A stretch of 64,000 bases of DNA. It comes from Cystobacter ferrugineus. Its GTDB lineage: Bacteria; Myxococcota; Myxococcia; Myxococcales; Myxococcaceae. The notes under the pieces are model-generated. The model saw only the letters and a list, made by a program, of their open reading frames with translations, had not been told where the DNA came from and did no database searches. The number at the start of each line of letters is the position of its first letter. The stretch's first letter is position 1. Positions 15,446-21,850 of the stretch are shown here, in pieces. The position numbers were made by a program, and so were the translations under genes. The DNA lies in assembly GCF_001887355.1 (NCBI RefSeq), contig NZ_MPIN01000002.1:372001-436000 (forward strand), read 5' to 3'.

Positions 15446-18145
15446 TTGTTGGACACGAGGGGAATGCGAACCGATGCCACCCAGCCGGGGCAGTTGGCCG
15501 ATCTGACCCACTGCGACAAGGAGCCCATCCACATCCCTGGCCGCATTCAGGCCCATGGGGTGCTGCTGGTGCTTCGGGAACCCGCGTTGACCATCGTGCA
15601 GGTCAGCGAGAACGTCGCCGACTTCCTCGGGATGCCGGTGGGTGCGCTGCTCGGAGAGCCCCTGCGCTCCTTCCTCCGGGAAGAGCAGCTCGCTCCGCTG
15701 CTGGAGTGTCTGCATGGGCAGAGCCTCACCGAGCCCGTGCGGCACGATCTCGTGTTGCGCACCCCCACCGGGGAGCGGCTCTTCGACGCCCTCCTCCACC
15801 GCTGCGGCGGGGCGCTCATCCTGGAGCTCGAGCCCTTCTCGCGGGAGGACGCGGTGGCGCTCGTGGCGCCCTTCCAGCAGGCGCGCGAGGCGCTCGCGCG
15901 GCTCAAGGTCGCCACGAGCCTCGACGAGCTCTATCGGATCGCGGCGAGCGTGGTGCGCCGGCTCACCGGCTTCGACCGGGTGCTCATCTACCAGTTCGAT
16001 CCGGAGGGAAACGGCACGGTCGTGGCCGAGGATCGGGAGGAGCACCTCGACACCTACCTGGGCCTGCACTATCCCGCCTCGGACATCCCGCGGCAGGCTC
16101 GGCAGCTCTATCTGCGCAACTGGCTACGGCTCATCCCGGACGCGCACCGTCCCACCGCCGCGCTCGTTCCCGACCTCCACCCCGACACCCGGCAGCCGCT
16201 CGACCTGAGTCTCTCCATCCTGCGTGCCGTCTCCCCGGTCCACATCGAGTACATGAAGAACCTGGGCCAGCGGGCCTCCATGAGCATCTCGCTCATCCGC
16301 GGCAACCAGCTCTGGGGGCTCATCTCCTGCGGCAATCACCAGGAGCCCAGACACGTCCCCTACGATCTCCGGGTGGCGTGCGAGCTGGTGGGCCAGATCC
16401 TCTCCCAGCAGATCTCCCTCTACGAGGCGGCGGAGCACTCGCGCCAAAGGATGAGCCTGCGGCTGCTCACGGAGCAGCTCACCGAGCAGATGGCGGAGGC
16501 CTTGGACTTTCGCGACGGGCTCCTCCGGCATCAGCCGAACCTGGGCGACCTGTTCGACGCCTCCGGCGCGGCTCTCTGCTTCGACGGGGAGTGCTCGCGC
16601 CTGGGGCGGACACCGGGCGAGGATGAGCTGTGGGCCCTGGCGCGGTGGCTCGACACGAACGCCCGCCTGCCTGTGTTCCACACCCATGCGCTGTCGCGGC
16701 TGTTCCCCGCGGCCGAGCGGTACAAGGACGTGGCCAGTGGGTTGCTCGCCCTGCGCATCTCCAGGCTCCAGAACCACTATGCCTTCTGGTTCCGTCCGGA
16801 GGTCGTCCAGACGGTGACGTGGGGGGGAGACCCGCGCAAGCCGGTGGAGCTCGGCCCGGACGGGCCCCGGCTGCACCCACGCAAGTCCTTCGAGCAATGG
16901 AAGGAACTCGTCCAGGGCCAGTCGAAACCCTGGCTCGCGCAGGAACTCGAGGCGGCACACGAATTGCGGCGGGCCATCATCGACGCGGACCTCAAGCGGC
17001 AGATGCTCCGCGAGAAGGAGGCCCGGGCCGAGGCCGAGGAGGCGCGGTGGTTGTTGACCTCCCTGACGGAGGCCATTCCCCAGATGGTGTGGTCCACCGA
17101 TCCCCTGGGCAATCCGGACTTCTACAACAGCCTCTGGTTCGAGAAGACCGGATGCTCCCTGGATGAGGCCCGGGGGCAGGGCTGGGCACAGGTCGTCCAC
17201 CCGGAGGACCGGCAGCGCACCCTCCAGGCGTGGCTCGAGGCCACCCGGATGGGGCAGGACTTCGAGATCGAACACCGCTTTCGCATGGTGGATGGGAGCT
17301 ACCGTTGGCAGCTCTCGCGCGCGCTGCCCGTGCGCGGCCCGGAAGGACAGGTGACGCGCTGGTTCGGGACCTCCACGGACATCGATGACCAGAAGCGCGC
17401 CGAGCAGGAGCGCTCGCGGGCCATCCTGGCGCGCGAGGAGATCCTCGCCATGGTCACCCACGATTTGAAGAACCCACTGGGTGTCATCCTGTTGACCACC
17501 GCCCTGATGCGCCGCTCGAAGTTCGAGGGCGAGCAGGGCGAGCAACTTCGGGGATACCTGGAGAAGATCCAGCGTGCGGCCGAGCGGATGAACAGCCTCA
17601 TCCGCGACATCCTCGATCTGGCACGCATCGAGGCGGGGCATTTCATCATCGAGCCGGCGCCGCACCTGCCCGTCACGCTGATGGACGAGGCCATCGAGCT
17701 GCTGCTGCCCCTGGCGACCCAGAAGGGCCTGCGGTTGGAGAGGCACGGGGGGAGCGAGCTCCTCGGCCCGGTACACTGCGACCGCGAGCGGATCCTCCAG
17801 GTCTTCTCCAATCTGTTGGGCAATGCCATCAAGTTCACCCCGGCGGGGGGCTCGGTGCTCGTCTCCGCCGAGCCGGGCGAGGGCACCGTGCGCTTCTCGG
17901 TGAAGGACACCGGGCCCGGCATTCCCGCCGAGCAGCTACCCCACCTCTTCGATCGCTACTGGCAGGCTCGGGACAAGGCGCGCATGGGCTCGGGGCTCGG
18001 GCTGTTCATCTCCCGAGGCATCATCGCCGCTCACGGCGGCCAGATCTGGGCGGACAGTTCCGTGGGTGTGGGCAGCACCTTCTCCTTCACCTTGCCGCTG
18101 GACTCACAACACAATCAGCCCCTGGGGATGCATCAACCAGGATGA
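15446..18145 (+). CDS. Bacteriophytochrome histidine kinase
   Basis: An 899-residue red/far-red photoreceptor kinase. Order: PAS-GAF-PHY photosensory module, an extra PAS (residues about 540-650), HisKA (VTHDLKNPLG, about 670) and HATPase (NLLGNAIKFTP, DTGPGIP, GSGLGLFIS). The biliverdin-attaching Cys is in THCDKEPIHIPG (residue 23, or 17 from the internal ATG at 15464). The GAF has the PASDIP motif near 210 and SPVHIEYMKNLG. The PHY tongue has PRKSF near 477. Where most relatives read CHH before the D-ring region, this one reads CGNH (about 294). TTG at 15446 and ATG at 15464 are both possible starts; GAGGGG directly precedes the ATG. No heme oxygenase or response regulator is adjacent. Confidence 0.93.
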   Translation: MLDTRGMRTDATQPGQLADLTHCDKEPIHIPGRIQAHGVLLVLREPALTIVQVSENVADFLGMPVGALLGEPLRSFLREEQLAPLLECLHGQSLTEPVRHDLVLRTPTGERLFDALLHRCGGALILELEPFSREDAVALVAPFQQAREALARLKVATSLDELYRIAASVVRRLTGFDRVLIYQFDPEGNGTVVAEDREEHLDTYLGLHYPASDIPRQARQLYLRNWLRLIPDAHRPTAALVPDLHPDTRQPLDLSLSILRAVSPVHIEYMKNLGQRASMSISLIRGNQLWGLISCGNHQEPRHVPYDLRVACELVGQILSQQISLYEAAEHSRQRMSLRLLTEQLTEQMAEALDFRDGLLRHQPNLGDLFDASGAALCFDGECSRLGRTPGEDELWALARWLDTNARLPVFHTHALSRLFPAAERYKDVASGLLALRISRLQNHYAFWFRPEVVQTVTWGGDPRKPVELGPDGPRLHPRKSFEQWKELVQGQSKPWLAQELEAAHELRRAIIDADLKRQMLREKEARAEAEEARWLLTSLTEAIPQMVWSTDPLGNPDFYNSLWFEKTGCSLDEARGQGWAQVVHPEDRQRTLQAWLEATRMGQDFEIEHRFRMVDGSYRWQLSRALPVRGPEGQVTRWFGTSTDIDDQKRAEQERSRAILAREEILAMVTHDLKNPLGVILLTTALMRRSKFEGEQGEQLRGYLEKIQRAAERMNSLIRDILDLARIEAGHFIIEPAPHLPVTLMDEAIELLLPLATQKGLRLERHGGSELLGPVHCDRERILQVFSNLLGNAIKFTPAGGSVLVSAEPGEGTVRFSVKDTGPGIPAEQLPHLFDRYWQARDKARMGSGLGLFISRGIIAAHGGQIWADSSVGVGSTFSFTLPLDSQHNQPLGMHQPG

Positions 18146-19491: not shown

Positions 19492-19515
19492 GCCCGGGCG
19501 CGTTGCCCGTGGCTC
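19490..19515. terminator. Bidirectional hairpin between convergent kelch and histidine kinase genes
   Basis: A stem of GAGCC plus CGGGC pairs with GCCCG plus GGCTC around a short loop, with one bulged T. It overlaps both stop codons. There is no long T-run, so termination efficiency is uncertain. Confidence 0.5.
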
Positions 19516-20974
19516 ATGGCCCCGAGTGAGTGAGCATGGGGACTTCGTGCGCCACGGGCACGACGAAGGAGAAGGTACTTCCGCGGCCGGGCTCGCTCTC
19601 CACCCAGATGCGCCCTCCGTGCGCCTCGACGAGCCCCTTGGCGATGGACAGCCCGAGCCCGGCTCCCCGGCGATCTCCGTGCCGCATCTGCCAGAAGCGA
19701 TCGAAGAGGTGCTCGCGGGCCTCGGGGGGAATTCCCGGGCCGGTATCACTCACCCAGAAGCGCACCACCGCTCCCTCCGTCCGGGCGCCGAGCGTCACCC
19801 GGCCCCCGGGCGGGGTGAACTTCAGGGCGTTGCCGAGCAGGTTGGAGAAGACCTGGAGGATCCGCTCCCGGTCCACGCGAACCCAGGGCAATGCCTCGGC
19901 GATATCGATGCTCAGTTGGAGCCGCGAGGCCAGCGGCCGCACCTCGTCGAGCGCCTCCTGGAGGAGTGACCCCGCGGGTTCCGGACCGGTCTCCACGGCC
20001 AGCCGGCCAGCCTCGATACGGCTCACGTCCAGCAGATCCTCGATCAACCGGTTCATGCGCTCCACGGAGCCGCGGATGATGCGCAAGGAAGCCTGGAGCC
20101 GTCCGTCGCTGGCGATGGTCTGCTGCCTCAACAAGGTCTGGGCGCTGATGGAGATGGCATTGAGCGGATTGCGCAGGTCATGTGCCACCACGGCCAGGAC
20201 GTCGTCACGTGCCTGGGTGGCCTCCCGGGCGGCTCGGTAGAGCCGGGCACTCTGGAGCGCGAGCGCGGCCCGGCGTGCCAGTTCCTCCGCCAGCCGCAGG
20301 TCCATCTCTCCATAGGCAGGGTGGGGAGCACTGGAGACGAGGACGAGCGTGCCCATGAAGCTTCCGTGGACCAGGAGTGGCAGGCCCATGAGTGAGCGCG
20401 GGCTCAGCTCGAGCAGGAGCCGGAGGTGCTCCTCGCTTCGAGCGAGGGACGCGAGGCTGCCGGTGGACACGTCCGACAGCACCCAGGGTCGTCGCGTCTC
20501 CAGCAGGGACGAGAGCAAGGACGGGCCGCGCCGCTCCAGCGCCGTGCGCTCCAGGGCCTCGACGAGTGGCGCCTTGTCCGCGTCACGGTGTATGACCTTC
20601 AGCCGCCGGGGCCGCCACTCGTCGGCCTCCAGGGCGAGCAAGCCGCAGTCCGCCAGGGCGCCCACCGCCAGCGTGGCGATGTTCGTGAGCGTCTGCTCAT
20701 GGTCCAGCGTCGATGCGAGGCGGGTGCCCACCTCGCTCAAGAAGCGGCCCTCCCACTCGAGCCTCTCCATCTCGGGGGCCGATGCCTCCCGCTGCCGCGA
20801 GCCGAGCAGGATCCCCACGCCCAGTGTCAGCGCCATCAACACCACCACCGATGGGAAGTTCCAGCCCCCCGACGGCCTTGGAGACGTCACGGAATGCACC
20901 AGCGTGAGGACTCCCAGAACGAGGAGCCCCAAGAACATCATCCTTCCCACGGTCTCCCAGGGGAGCCGGCGCAT
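19514..20974 (-). CDS. Membrane sensor histidine kinase with GAF domain
   Basis: A 486-residue kinase with two N-terminal membrane segments and almost no periplasmic loop. A GAF domain follows (residues about 85-235, starting [13 protein letters not shown]), then HisKA ([14 protein letters not shown]) and HATPase ([30 protein letters not shown]). The catalytic half is closely similar to that of the bacteriophytochrome nearby, so they may share partners. With so short an outer loop, the input is probably cytoplasmic or intramembrane. It is divergent from the B12-binding protein gene across a 198-base region holding a perfect inverted repeat. No response regulator adjoins it. GGGAGGG precedes the ATG. 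Confidence 0.9.
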
Positions 20975-21002
20975 GTCCTTTCCCTCCCCCGTGAGAACTC
21001 CT

Positions 21003-21021
21003 GACCAGAGGGGCTCTGGTC
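21003..21021. promoter_or_regulatory. Perfect inverted repeat in the histidine kinase / B12 protein divergent region
   Basis: GACCAGAG and CTCTGGTC are separated by GGG, 29 bases upstream of the kinase ATG and about 150 upstream of the B12-protein ATG. It is a candidate operator for one or both genes. Confidence 0.45.
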
Positions 21022-21172
21022 TCCCTCAAGATGGAGCGGGCGGAAGGTCTTTCCAATCCCAGTGCATGCAAGGGGGAGGCAGGCAGGGCGGCGACAGGGC
21101 CTTCTCCATCTCGCGGCGAAGAAGGCGTCGTGGCTACATTGGGTTTGGAGGAGGCGCGCGCGCCGGAAAACC

Positions 21173-21850
21173 ATGGAACAAAGCCAGCCAGCGGAGCTTC
21201 GCTTCCTTCGCCTGCTCGCGTCCTATCTCGCCACGCAACTGGCGGGGGACCTGCGGGGCGTCTTGCGCCTCCTGGATGAGTCATTGGCGCGGGGCGCCTC
21301 TGTCACGGACCTCCAGTGCCAGGTCATCCAGGCGGCTCAGCGAGAGCTGGGCCGGCTCTGGCAGCAAGGCCATATCGGCATCGCCCAGGAGCACCGGGCC
21401 ACCTCCATCTCCCAGGTGGCGCTGGCCCACCTCTTCTCTCGCGCCCAGCCCGCGCCCGCCCGGGGCATGAGCGTGGCGGTGGCCTGTGTCGAGGGGGAGT
21501 TGCACGAGATGCCCGCCCGCCTGTTATCCGACTTCCTGGAGCTGGCGGGCTTCACCGTGATACACCTCGGAGCCAACCTCCCCACGGACGGCCTGGTTTC
21601 GCTCCTCGAACGAGAGCCGCCAGACGTGCTGGCCCTGTCGGTGACGATGCTCTTCAACATCCCGGCCCTTCGCAGGGCCGTCGCGGAGGTCCGCGGGCGG
21701 CTGGGCCCCGCTCTGCCCATCCTCGTGGGCGGCCTCGCCATCAACGCGCACCCTGGACTGGTGGAGGAGCTGGGCGTGGCGAGCGCGGGTCCCACTCCGG
21801 CGGAGCTGGAGTCCTCCGTGCTGCGCGCGGTGGCTCGGCGTCTTCATTGA
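21173..21850 (+). CDS. Stand-alone cobalamin-binding protein with Wx9EH light-sensor signature
   Basis: A 225-residue soluble protein with a helical B12 cap (residues about 15-90) and a Rossmann-like B12-binding domain (about 98-210). The cap has Trp63 followed by nine residues and Glu73-His74, the Wx9EH signature of CarH/LitR adenosylcobalamin photoreceptors. The lower-ligand region reads VEGELHEMP with His111, a variant of the E/DxHxxG motif. The residue after Trp63 is Gln, where CarH has His132. There is no MerR DNA-binding domain, so output must go through a partner, possibly the divergent histidine kinase. The ATG at 21173 is chosen because the cap starts there. The ribosome-binding site is weak. 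Confidence 0.85.
   Translation: MEQSQPAELRFLRLLASYLATQLAGDLRGVLRLLDESLARGASVTDLQCQVIQAAQRELGRLWQQGHIGIAQEHRATSISQVALAHLFSRAQPAPARGMSVAVACVEGELHEMPARLLSDFLELAGFTVIHLGANLPTDGLVSLLEREPPDVLALSVTMLFNIPALRRAVAEVRGRLGPALPILVGGLAINAHPGLVEELGVASAGPTPAELESSVLRAVARRLH

Follow-up and report, generated by a model that had tools for sequence, protein, structure and literature searches.

A globin-less, photocobilin-type B12-domain protein beside a divergent GAF histidine kinase in Cystobacter ferrugineus

Introduction

Light-responsive cobalamin-binding domains (CBDs) are marked by the SignatureFinder light signature GxxW, EH, GxxH and GxxxP (PMC11796333). The residue that follows the Trp is His132 in TtCarH, and proteins without this His may have a light-state mechanism unlike that of TtCarH (PMC11796333). 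SasPcob, a proven green-light AdoCbl photoreceptor, has a Gln at this place (PMC11796333), and its His108 was assigned the role of the lower-ligand His (PMC10979010). SasPcob and AbDPcob are less stable without biliverdin (PMC11796333), and an AdoCbl-only photocobilin gives no response at 660 nm (PMC10979010). When isolated photocobilins were mixed with a separate cyclase domain, the authors concluded that stand-alone photocobilins can regulate by contact; the role of the stand-alone proteins is termed 'less clear' in the same paper (PMC10979010).

The pairing of B12-binding proteins with globins in Myxococcales is already in print (Rockwell 2023, PMC10151467). The three-gene pre-2 cluster described there consists of a reductase, a globin and a B12-binding protein, two BBAG-2 proteins bind biliverdin, and a B12-globin association is reported for other Myxococcales. 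The functions of the BBAG proteins are termed 'not yet known'. The term 'histidine kinase' is not found in the main text of that paper, nor is 'kinase' in the main texts of the photocobilin (PMC10979010) and SignatureFinder (PMC11796333) papers.

In the literature searched, we found no published case in which a stand-alone B12 photosensor is paired with a histidine kinase (HK). The abstract of a photoglobin study by Schneider et al. from 2022 is said to report gene neighbourhoods with signal-transduction domains, and the HK association of fused photocobilins may therefore already be published. Here, we analysed a 64,000-nucleotide stretch of Cystobacter ferrugineus DNA (contig NZ_MPIN01000002.1, positions 372,001 to 436,000), which is called the window. 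Coordinates without a prefix refer to the window.

Results

A stand-alone B12-domain protein with a complete light signature

The gene and its parts are located as follows.

21173..21850, + strand: stand-alone cobalamin-binding photosensor-like protein, 225 aa (ORF, Pfam, AlphaFold, Foldseek, VIA-align)
21239..21433, + strand: four-helix cap subdomain, residues 23-87 (PF02607, B12-binding_2, E 1.9e-10)
21359..21394, + strand: Wx9EH motif (W63-H74), in which Gln64 corresponds to His132 of TtCarH (sequence)
21470..21781, + strand: Rossmann B12-binding subdomain, residues 100-203 (PF02310, B12-binding, E 6.4e-18)
21497..21505, + strand: ExH lower-ligand motif, E109-L-H111 (sequence; alignment of 100 CBDs)

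The reading frame starts with the ATG at 21173 and its stop codon ends at 21850; W63 is encoded by TGG at 21359-21361 and H111 by CAC at 21503-21505. Both Pfam matches of the 225-aa protein are to B12-binding domains, and a DNA-binding domain was not found. The first-pass annotation had placed the gene at these coordinates, with W63, E73, H74, His111 and Gln64 and without a DNA-binding domain, and all of this was confirmed by ORF, sequence and Pfam analysis. Since the upstream sequence is not conserved and contains in-frame stops in the related locus L036, the ATG start is supported; the GTG at 21062 was ruled out as the start of a longer protein on the same grounds.

The residues W63, E73, H74 and H111 are invariant across the 17 proteins of alignment A2, so their pattern is not due to chance. 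We then aligned 100 CBDs, comprising the window protein, 98 loci and the MerR-CBD protein of the same genome. All four residues occur together in 98 of them (W63 in 98, E73, H74 and His111 each in 100), and GxxW, EH, GxxH and GxxxP are all complete in 84. The window protein has the complete signature with G60xxW63, E73H74, G108xxH111 and G133xxxP137. Compared with four orthologues, dN/dS was 0.24-0.29, while the +1 frame gave 1.04-1.38. The CBD gene is under purifying selection.

The protein groups with the photocobilins

With phmmer, the closest solved protein was SasPcob (8j2w/8j2x, E 5.5e-27), followed by AbDPcob (8j2y, E 7.3e-21) and CtMerR (8jbs, E 2.5e-20). Weaker matches were obtained with methionine synthases (from E 3.5e-12, 8g3h), TtCarH (about 2e-9) and AerR (7te2, 0.0033). 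The AlphaFold model (mean pLDDT 91.4) had SasPcob 8j2w as its top Foldseek match (E 1.6e-16) and as its best VIA-align match (Z 27.1, 1.9 A, 207 residues), ahead of 3ezx (Z 23.4), 1bmt (Z 22.6) and TtCarH (about Z 20). Thus 8j2w came first with all three programs, and the window CBD is grouped with the photocobilins by sequence, predicted structure and tree.

The protein had been presented as a CarH without its output domain. This description was not borne out: the photocobilins are nearer than TtCarH by the phmmer values given above, and SasPcob and AerR are stand-alone B12 photosensors that were already known. The NCBIfam CarH model reached 46.2 bits against a cut-off of 400. An N-terminal MerR domain was not found by Pfam, and the upstream frame is unconserved. 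The His for the bis-His light state at the TtCarH 132 position is replaced by Gln64, and a fused biliverdin-binding globin (photoglobin) domain was absent from the window protein as judged by Pfam and length. The window genome holds a separate MerR-CBD protein (L002). We rejected the idea of a CarH that had lost its MerR domain, because the photocobilins are closer and this MerR-CBD protein lies far outside in the tree.

From Gln64, a different photochemistry had been proposed. In 78 of the 100 aligned CBDs, the residue next after the Trp is Gln, as it is in the green-light-responsive SasPcob; Gln64 is therefore ordinary for the photocobilin branch and was ruled out as a mark of odd photochemistry inside the family. 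PMC11796333 does agree with the proposal in that His-less proteins may differ from TtCarH in the mechanism of the light state.

Instead of light, the CBD might sense how much B12 is available or in which form (AdoCbl versus hydroxocobalamin), and report the B12 status to the neighbouring kinase in the dark. The CBD fold is common to light-independent corrinoid proteins such as 3ezx and 1bmt, the light-independent methionine synthases match better than TtCarH, and the Dinoroseobacter PpaA interacts with PpsR when given hydroxocobalamin (PMC10890935). However, the light signature is intact, Trp63 included, MetH is without Wx9EH (PMC8156234), and SasPcob and AbDPcob, the nearest relatives that others have assayed, respond to light (PMC10979010, PMC11796333). 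The bilin-globin module of the sister operons (see below) also makes sense for light. We consider sensing of B12 status unlikely.

A role as corrinoid carrier of a methyltransferase system, of the MtaC/MtmC type, is very improbable. The similarity to the fold of 3ezx and weak matches to curated NCBIfam corrinoid-protein models would fit such a role, but the scores are far under the cut-offs of 215-450 bits (the best is 41.6 bits against 370), the photocobilins match better, the protein has Wx9EH, and a kinase is the one neighbour conserved in window-type loci.

The divergent kinase is the conserved neighbour

Two further features adjoin the CBD gene.

19514..20974, - strand: two-TM GAF histidine kinase, 486 aa, the proposed partner (Pfam, hydropathy, conserved linkage)
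20975..21172, no strand: divergent intergenic region, 198 bp, which separates the two start codons

The kinase contains GAF (93-240), HisKA (255-323) and HATPase_c (368-475) domains by Pfam, and the two kinase domains are intact. By hydropathy, it has two hydrophobic segments (roughly residues 10-28 and 40-58) joined by a loop some dozen residues long, which confirms the earlier description as a divergent GAF kinase with almost no external loop. In the gap, a 10-base block, TTCCAATCCC (21051-21060), is identical in all five orthologous loci aligned and is a possible regulatory site. The gap plausibly holds a putative promoter region common to both genes.

To follow the linkage, 59 related genomes including that of the window (G000) were searched for orthologues. 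The CBD was found at an identity of at least 80% in five of them (G000, G002, G003, G010 and G030), with the next best at 55%. The sensor half of the HK was found at 63% or more in the same five genomes, each time beside the CBD; the next match among those listed was 44%, with up to 46 candidates scored per genome. At these identities, neither gene was found in the remaining 54 genomes. Six neighbouring window genes were then used as probes in about 8 kb around the CBD in G010 and G030, which belong to a second genus, and the HK alone remained beside the CBD. The HK of G010 has an extra PAS domain ahead of the GAF domain by Pfam, and that of G030 is of similar length. The window-type pair is known from these five genomes and two genera only.

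The pair is flanked by genes for a kelch repeat protein and a multicopper oxidase, neither of which is a response regulator. A complete bacteriophytochrome (PAS-GAF-PHY-PAS-HisKA-HATPase_c) is encoded at 15446-18145, 1.4 kb past the HK, with the kelch gene in between. It is kept in G003 and was not found within 8 kb of the CBD in G002, G010 and G030. The bacteriophytochrome, the kelch protein and the multicopper oxidase were rejected as parts of the system, because none of them was found in the roughly 8 kb around the CBD of G010 and G030.

The protein could also be a B12 photosensor for which the divergent kinase is a mere neighbour, its true target being another protein elsewhere in the cell. 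The co-occurrence in five of five genomes and the retention of the HK as the sole conserved neighbour of six probed, across two genera, argue against this.

Kinases adjoin most members of the wider family

When 84,980 species genomes were scanned with the CBD alignment, 95 loci were confirmed and 80 of these were kept. CBD, globin, HK and bilin-reductase domains were mapped in the loci by six-frame profile searches. For counting, we used the 53 loci with at least 2.5 kb of flank on both sides and left out the 27 of 80 with less on one side. An HK was present within 2.5 kb in 46 of the 53. By class, these were 15 of 18 loci with a fused globin-CBD, 26 of 27 with a separate globin and 5 of 8 without a globin, two of these last five being CBD-HK fusions. 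By source, they were 30 of 30 myxobacterial and 16 of 23 other loci, with L077 counted as myxobacterial since it was placed inside Myxococcus in the tree although labelled Comamonas. This contig, labelled Comamonas sp. KCTC 72670, probably stems from a mislabelled or contaminated assembly. Over all 80 loci, 67 HKs were found in the 356,019 bp within 2.5 kb of the CBD (0.188/kb) and 7 in the 208,930 bp more than 5 kb away (0.034/kb). The 53 loci are not independent, because 30 are myxobacterial and all of these have an HK. Myxobacterial genomes are rich in histidine kinases, which counts against reading the kinase as a partner.

Outside the simple neighbourhood, the link takes further forms. 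At 14 of 18 loci, an HK lies downstream of the fused globin-CBD gene, in records labelled as ten phyla, many of them metagenome bins. In three relatives, a single chain holds both CBD and HK.

L130:4762-6408: CBD-HK fusion protein (Verrucomicrobiales)
L134:1037-3631: CBD-HK fusion protein (Planctomycetaceae), also with a photoglobin-like N-terminal match
L128:6902-8593: CBD-HK fusion protein (Myxococcota), also with a photoglobin-like N-terminal match

On a plasmid of Azospirillum thermophilum, a HAMP sensor kinase lies downstream of the CBD gene with one small gene between them. The kinase link therefore exists in five forms, namely the window pair, split operons, globin-less operons, fused globin-CBD genes with an HK, and CBD-HK chains. 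The genome survey that the first-pass annotation had proposed thus found homologues near kinases, and the CBD-HK pairing is conserved and recurs in independent forms.

The HK is not a universal partner of the family. It was not found within 2.5 kb in 7 of the 53 loci (L093, L094, L097, L117, L123, L126 and L129), and on a Streptomyces plasmid a relative is flanked by PP2C and STAS genes, and a kinase and a regulator are encoded on the opposite strand at a distance of about 3 kb. These varying partners, and STAS/SpoIIE as predicted for SasPcob (PMC10979010), favour the kinase as a mere neighbour, whereas the wider HK association and the three fusions speak against it; we regard a target elsewhere as improbable. 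As a separate observation, L101:563-1837 is a MEDS-CBD fusion (MEDS PF14417, E 6.9e-42), as probably is L108, a combination listed in PMC11796333.

Sister loci carry a split photocobilin operon

The sister group, at about 50% identity, has operons in the order CBD, a helical protein of about 240 aa, a hybrid HK and a receiver-HK-receiver protein. The 240-aa protein had no Pfam match. Its profile gave six matches in the PDB, including 8j2x and 8j2w (E 0.0019) and 8j2y (0.53), whereas Foldseek found nothing under 0.001, the best being haemoglobin (0.012) and 8j2w at 0.029. The model (mean pLDDT 93.7) resembles two globin units. With VIA-align, where a common helical arrangement alone can yield Z 12-14, residues 124-240 fitted best to the ApcE bilin domain (Z 14.2, 113 residues, 2.8 A) and residues 9-123 to phycobilisome core chains (Z 12.6), with photocobilins at about Z 13. 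These several weak to middling lines suggest a tandem bilin-type globin, an assignment that also leans on the bilin reductase in the operon.

L047:2637-3299 (= L090): bilin reductase gene by split CBD and globin genes (PF05996)

The operon of G008 includes this type of ferredoxin-dependent bilin reductase (PF05996, E 1.9e-30). Matches were also found in L057, L058, L094 and L121, with HKs alongside in L047, L057 and L058, and the reductase loci, which are similar to the pre-2 clusters of PMC10151467, span Myxococcota, Gemmatimonadota and Thermomicrobiota bins. The loci of G008 and of G029, which belong to the same family as the window genome, match named Myxococcaceae MAG contigs exactly (L047 = L090, L046 = L091), so that the window genome is myxobacterial by kinship. 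A short ORF directly upstream of the CBD at L047:985-1323 has heme oxygenase-like ends by eye and no Pfam match at E 0.1.

In the Nannocystis/Kofleriaceae loci L056, L059, L064, L068, L082 and L083, the CBD and a separate globin are divergent from two HKs, which share about 48-51% and 52-55% identity with the operon pair. Since these loci are also divergent, the arrangement seems to have more than one origin. The split operon is present in a named Myxococcus xanthus strain (L067), so that the idea is testable in a genetic model.

A probable loss of the globin

In the tree of the same 100 CBDs, the five window-type CBDs form one clade (support 100/99), whose sister is the second Nannocystis pusilla copy, L055 (100/93). 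Both together fall within a group of globin-bearing split systems (support 100/83 for the 13-row set and 100/94 for the 17-row set), and L088 lies just outside the 17-row set. The operons of L055 and L088 consist of CBD, HK1 and HK2, the kinases being homologous to the split-operon pair, and a globin match was found in neither of them.

The photoglobin profile had no match in the 64-kb window at E <= 1, and globin profile A1 gave nothing at E <= 10 in the window genome, with 150 of 158 candidates scored. At E 0.01, the globin profile detected 10 of the 59 genomes (up to 48 candidates each), and G000, G002 (one contig) and G003 were not among them. The window genome apparently cannot lend a globin in trans. 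G010 and G030 retain a separate split operon in addition to the window-type pair, and in the genome of L055 the other CBD (L056) adjoins a globin; because each has a globin elsewhere, these genomes could share it in trans. The window genome carries two heme oxygenase genes elsewhere (G000:C7:477301-477903 and G000:C8:166277-166843), so biliverdin is probably available although photoglobin was not found.

The sensor half of the window HK had no match in the operon kinases tested, which indicates that the partner kinase has changed. From these sequence comparisons, the simplest reading would be that one globin loss preceded the window clade and L055, that the HK link was kept and that the operon HKs were later swapped for the divergent membrane GAF-HK. 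The earlier reading as a sensor-kinase pair holds for the pairing itself but overlooked the globin half of the ancestral system, which the sister operons carry.

Discussion

We propose, with moderate confidence, that the window protein is a photocobilin-type B12 module that has lost its globin and acts as a separate subunit, passing a light signal to the divergent GAF HK by contact. By analogy with the photocobilins and CarH, we infer that the window CBD binds and photolyses AdoCbl. In the dark, AdoCbl would be bound base-off with His111 below, and Trp63, Glu73 and His74 would form a cap over the adenosyl group. Under green or near-UV light, the Co-C bond would break and the shape or oligomeric state of the CBD would change; the changed CBD would then act through protein contact on the cytoplasmic portion of the two-TM GAF HK and alter its activity. 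The contact with the kinase and the sign of its effect are inferred only. A cytoplasmic input subunit would fit this HK, since its short periplasmic loop leaves no obvious signal from the outside. Because the globin is absent, red-light sensitivity is not expected, as with the AdoCbl-only photocobilin. Since photocobilins are less stable without biliverdin, a globin-less relative might need another partner.

More generally, and at somewhat less than an even chance, B12 photosensors may feed two-component signalling in trans, with a soluble AdoCbl module serving a separate sensor kinase as its light-input subunit and with the bilin-globin as a detachable antenna. The window pair would then be an antenna-free form, connected to a membrane GAF kinase, in which red-plus-green sensing is reduced to green only. 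Across records of ten phyla, the gene maps suggest histidine kinases as one concrete output, and the sensors can be arranged in a series that runs from fused through split to globin-less forms. If true, two-component systems would be under green-light-gated, B12-based control via a separate subunit.

The window protein shares the W-x-EH and E/DxH motifs of the CBD and the Gln after the Trp with the photocobilins SasPcob of Saccharothrix syringae and AbDPcob (the Gln with SasPcob), but it is without the biliverdin globin and has a histidine kinase as neighbour. The BBAG-2/B12-binding clusters of Myxococcales (PMC10151467) resemble the sister loci, where the CBD adjoins a globin and in some cases a bilin reductase, a likeness by gene content; the window copy, in contrast, has neither globin nor reductase. 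Relative to the main text of that paper, the HK genes of the split operons are an addition made here. With CarH/LitR, the protein has Wx9EH, the lower-ligand His and the CBD fold in common, and differs in lacking the MerR domain and in the Gln at the His132 position. Like AerR/PpaA, which works by binding a regulator (PMC10890935), it has a free-standing B12 domain by Pfam, yet it matches AerR only weakly in sequence and its neighbour is a kinase. In the Class II LitR and short LOV pair of Pseudomonas, a B12-domain protein is likewise one of two adjacent light-response genes; in that pair, LOV does the sensing and the B12 domain has degenerated (PMC9758184), whereas both B12 subdomains of the window protein are intact.
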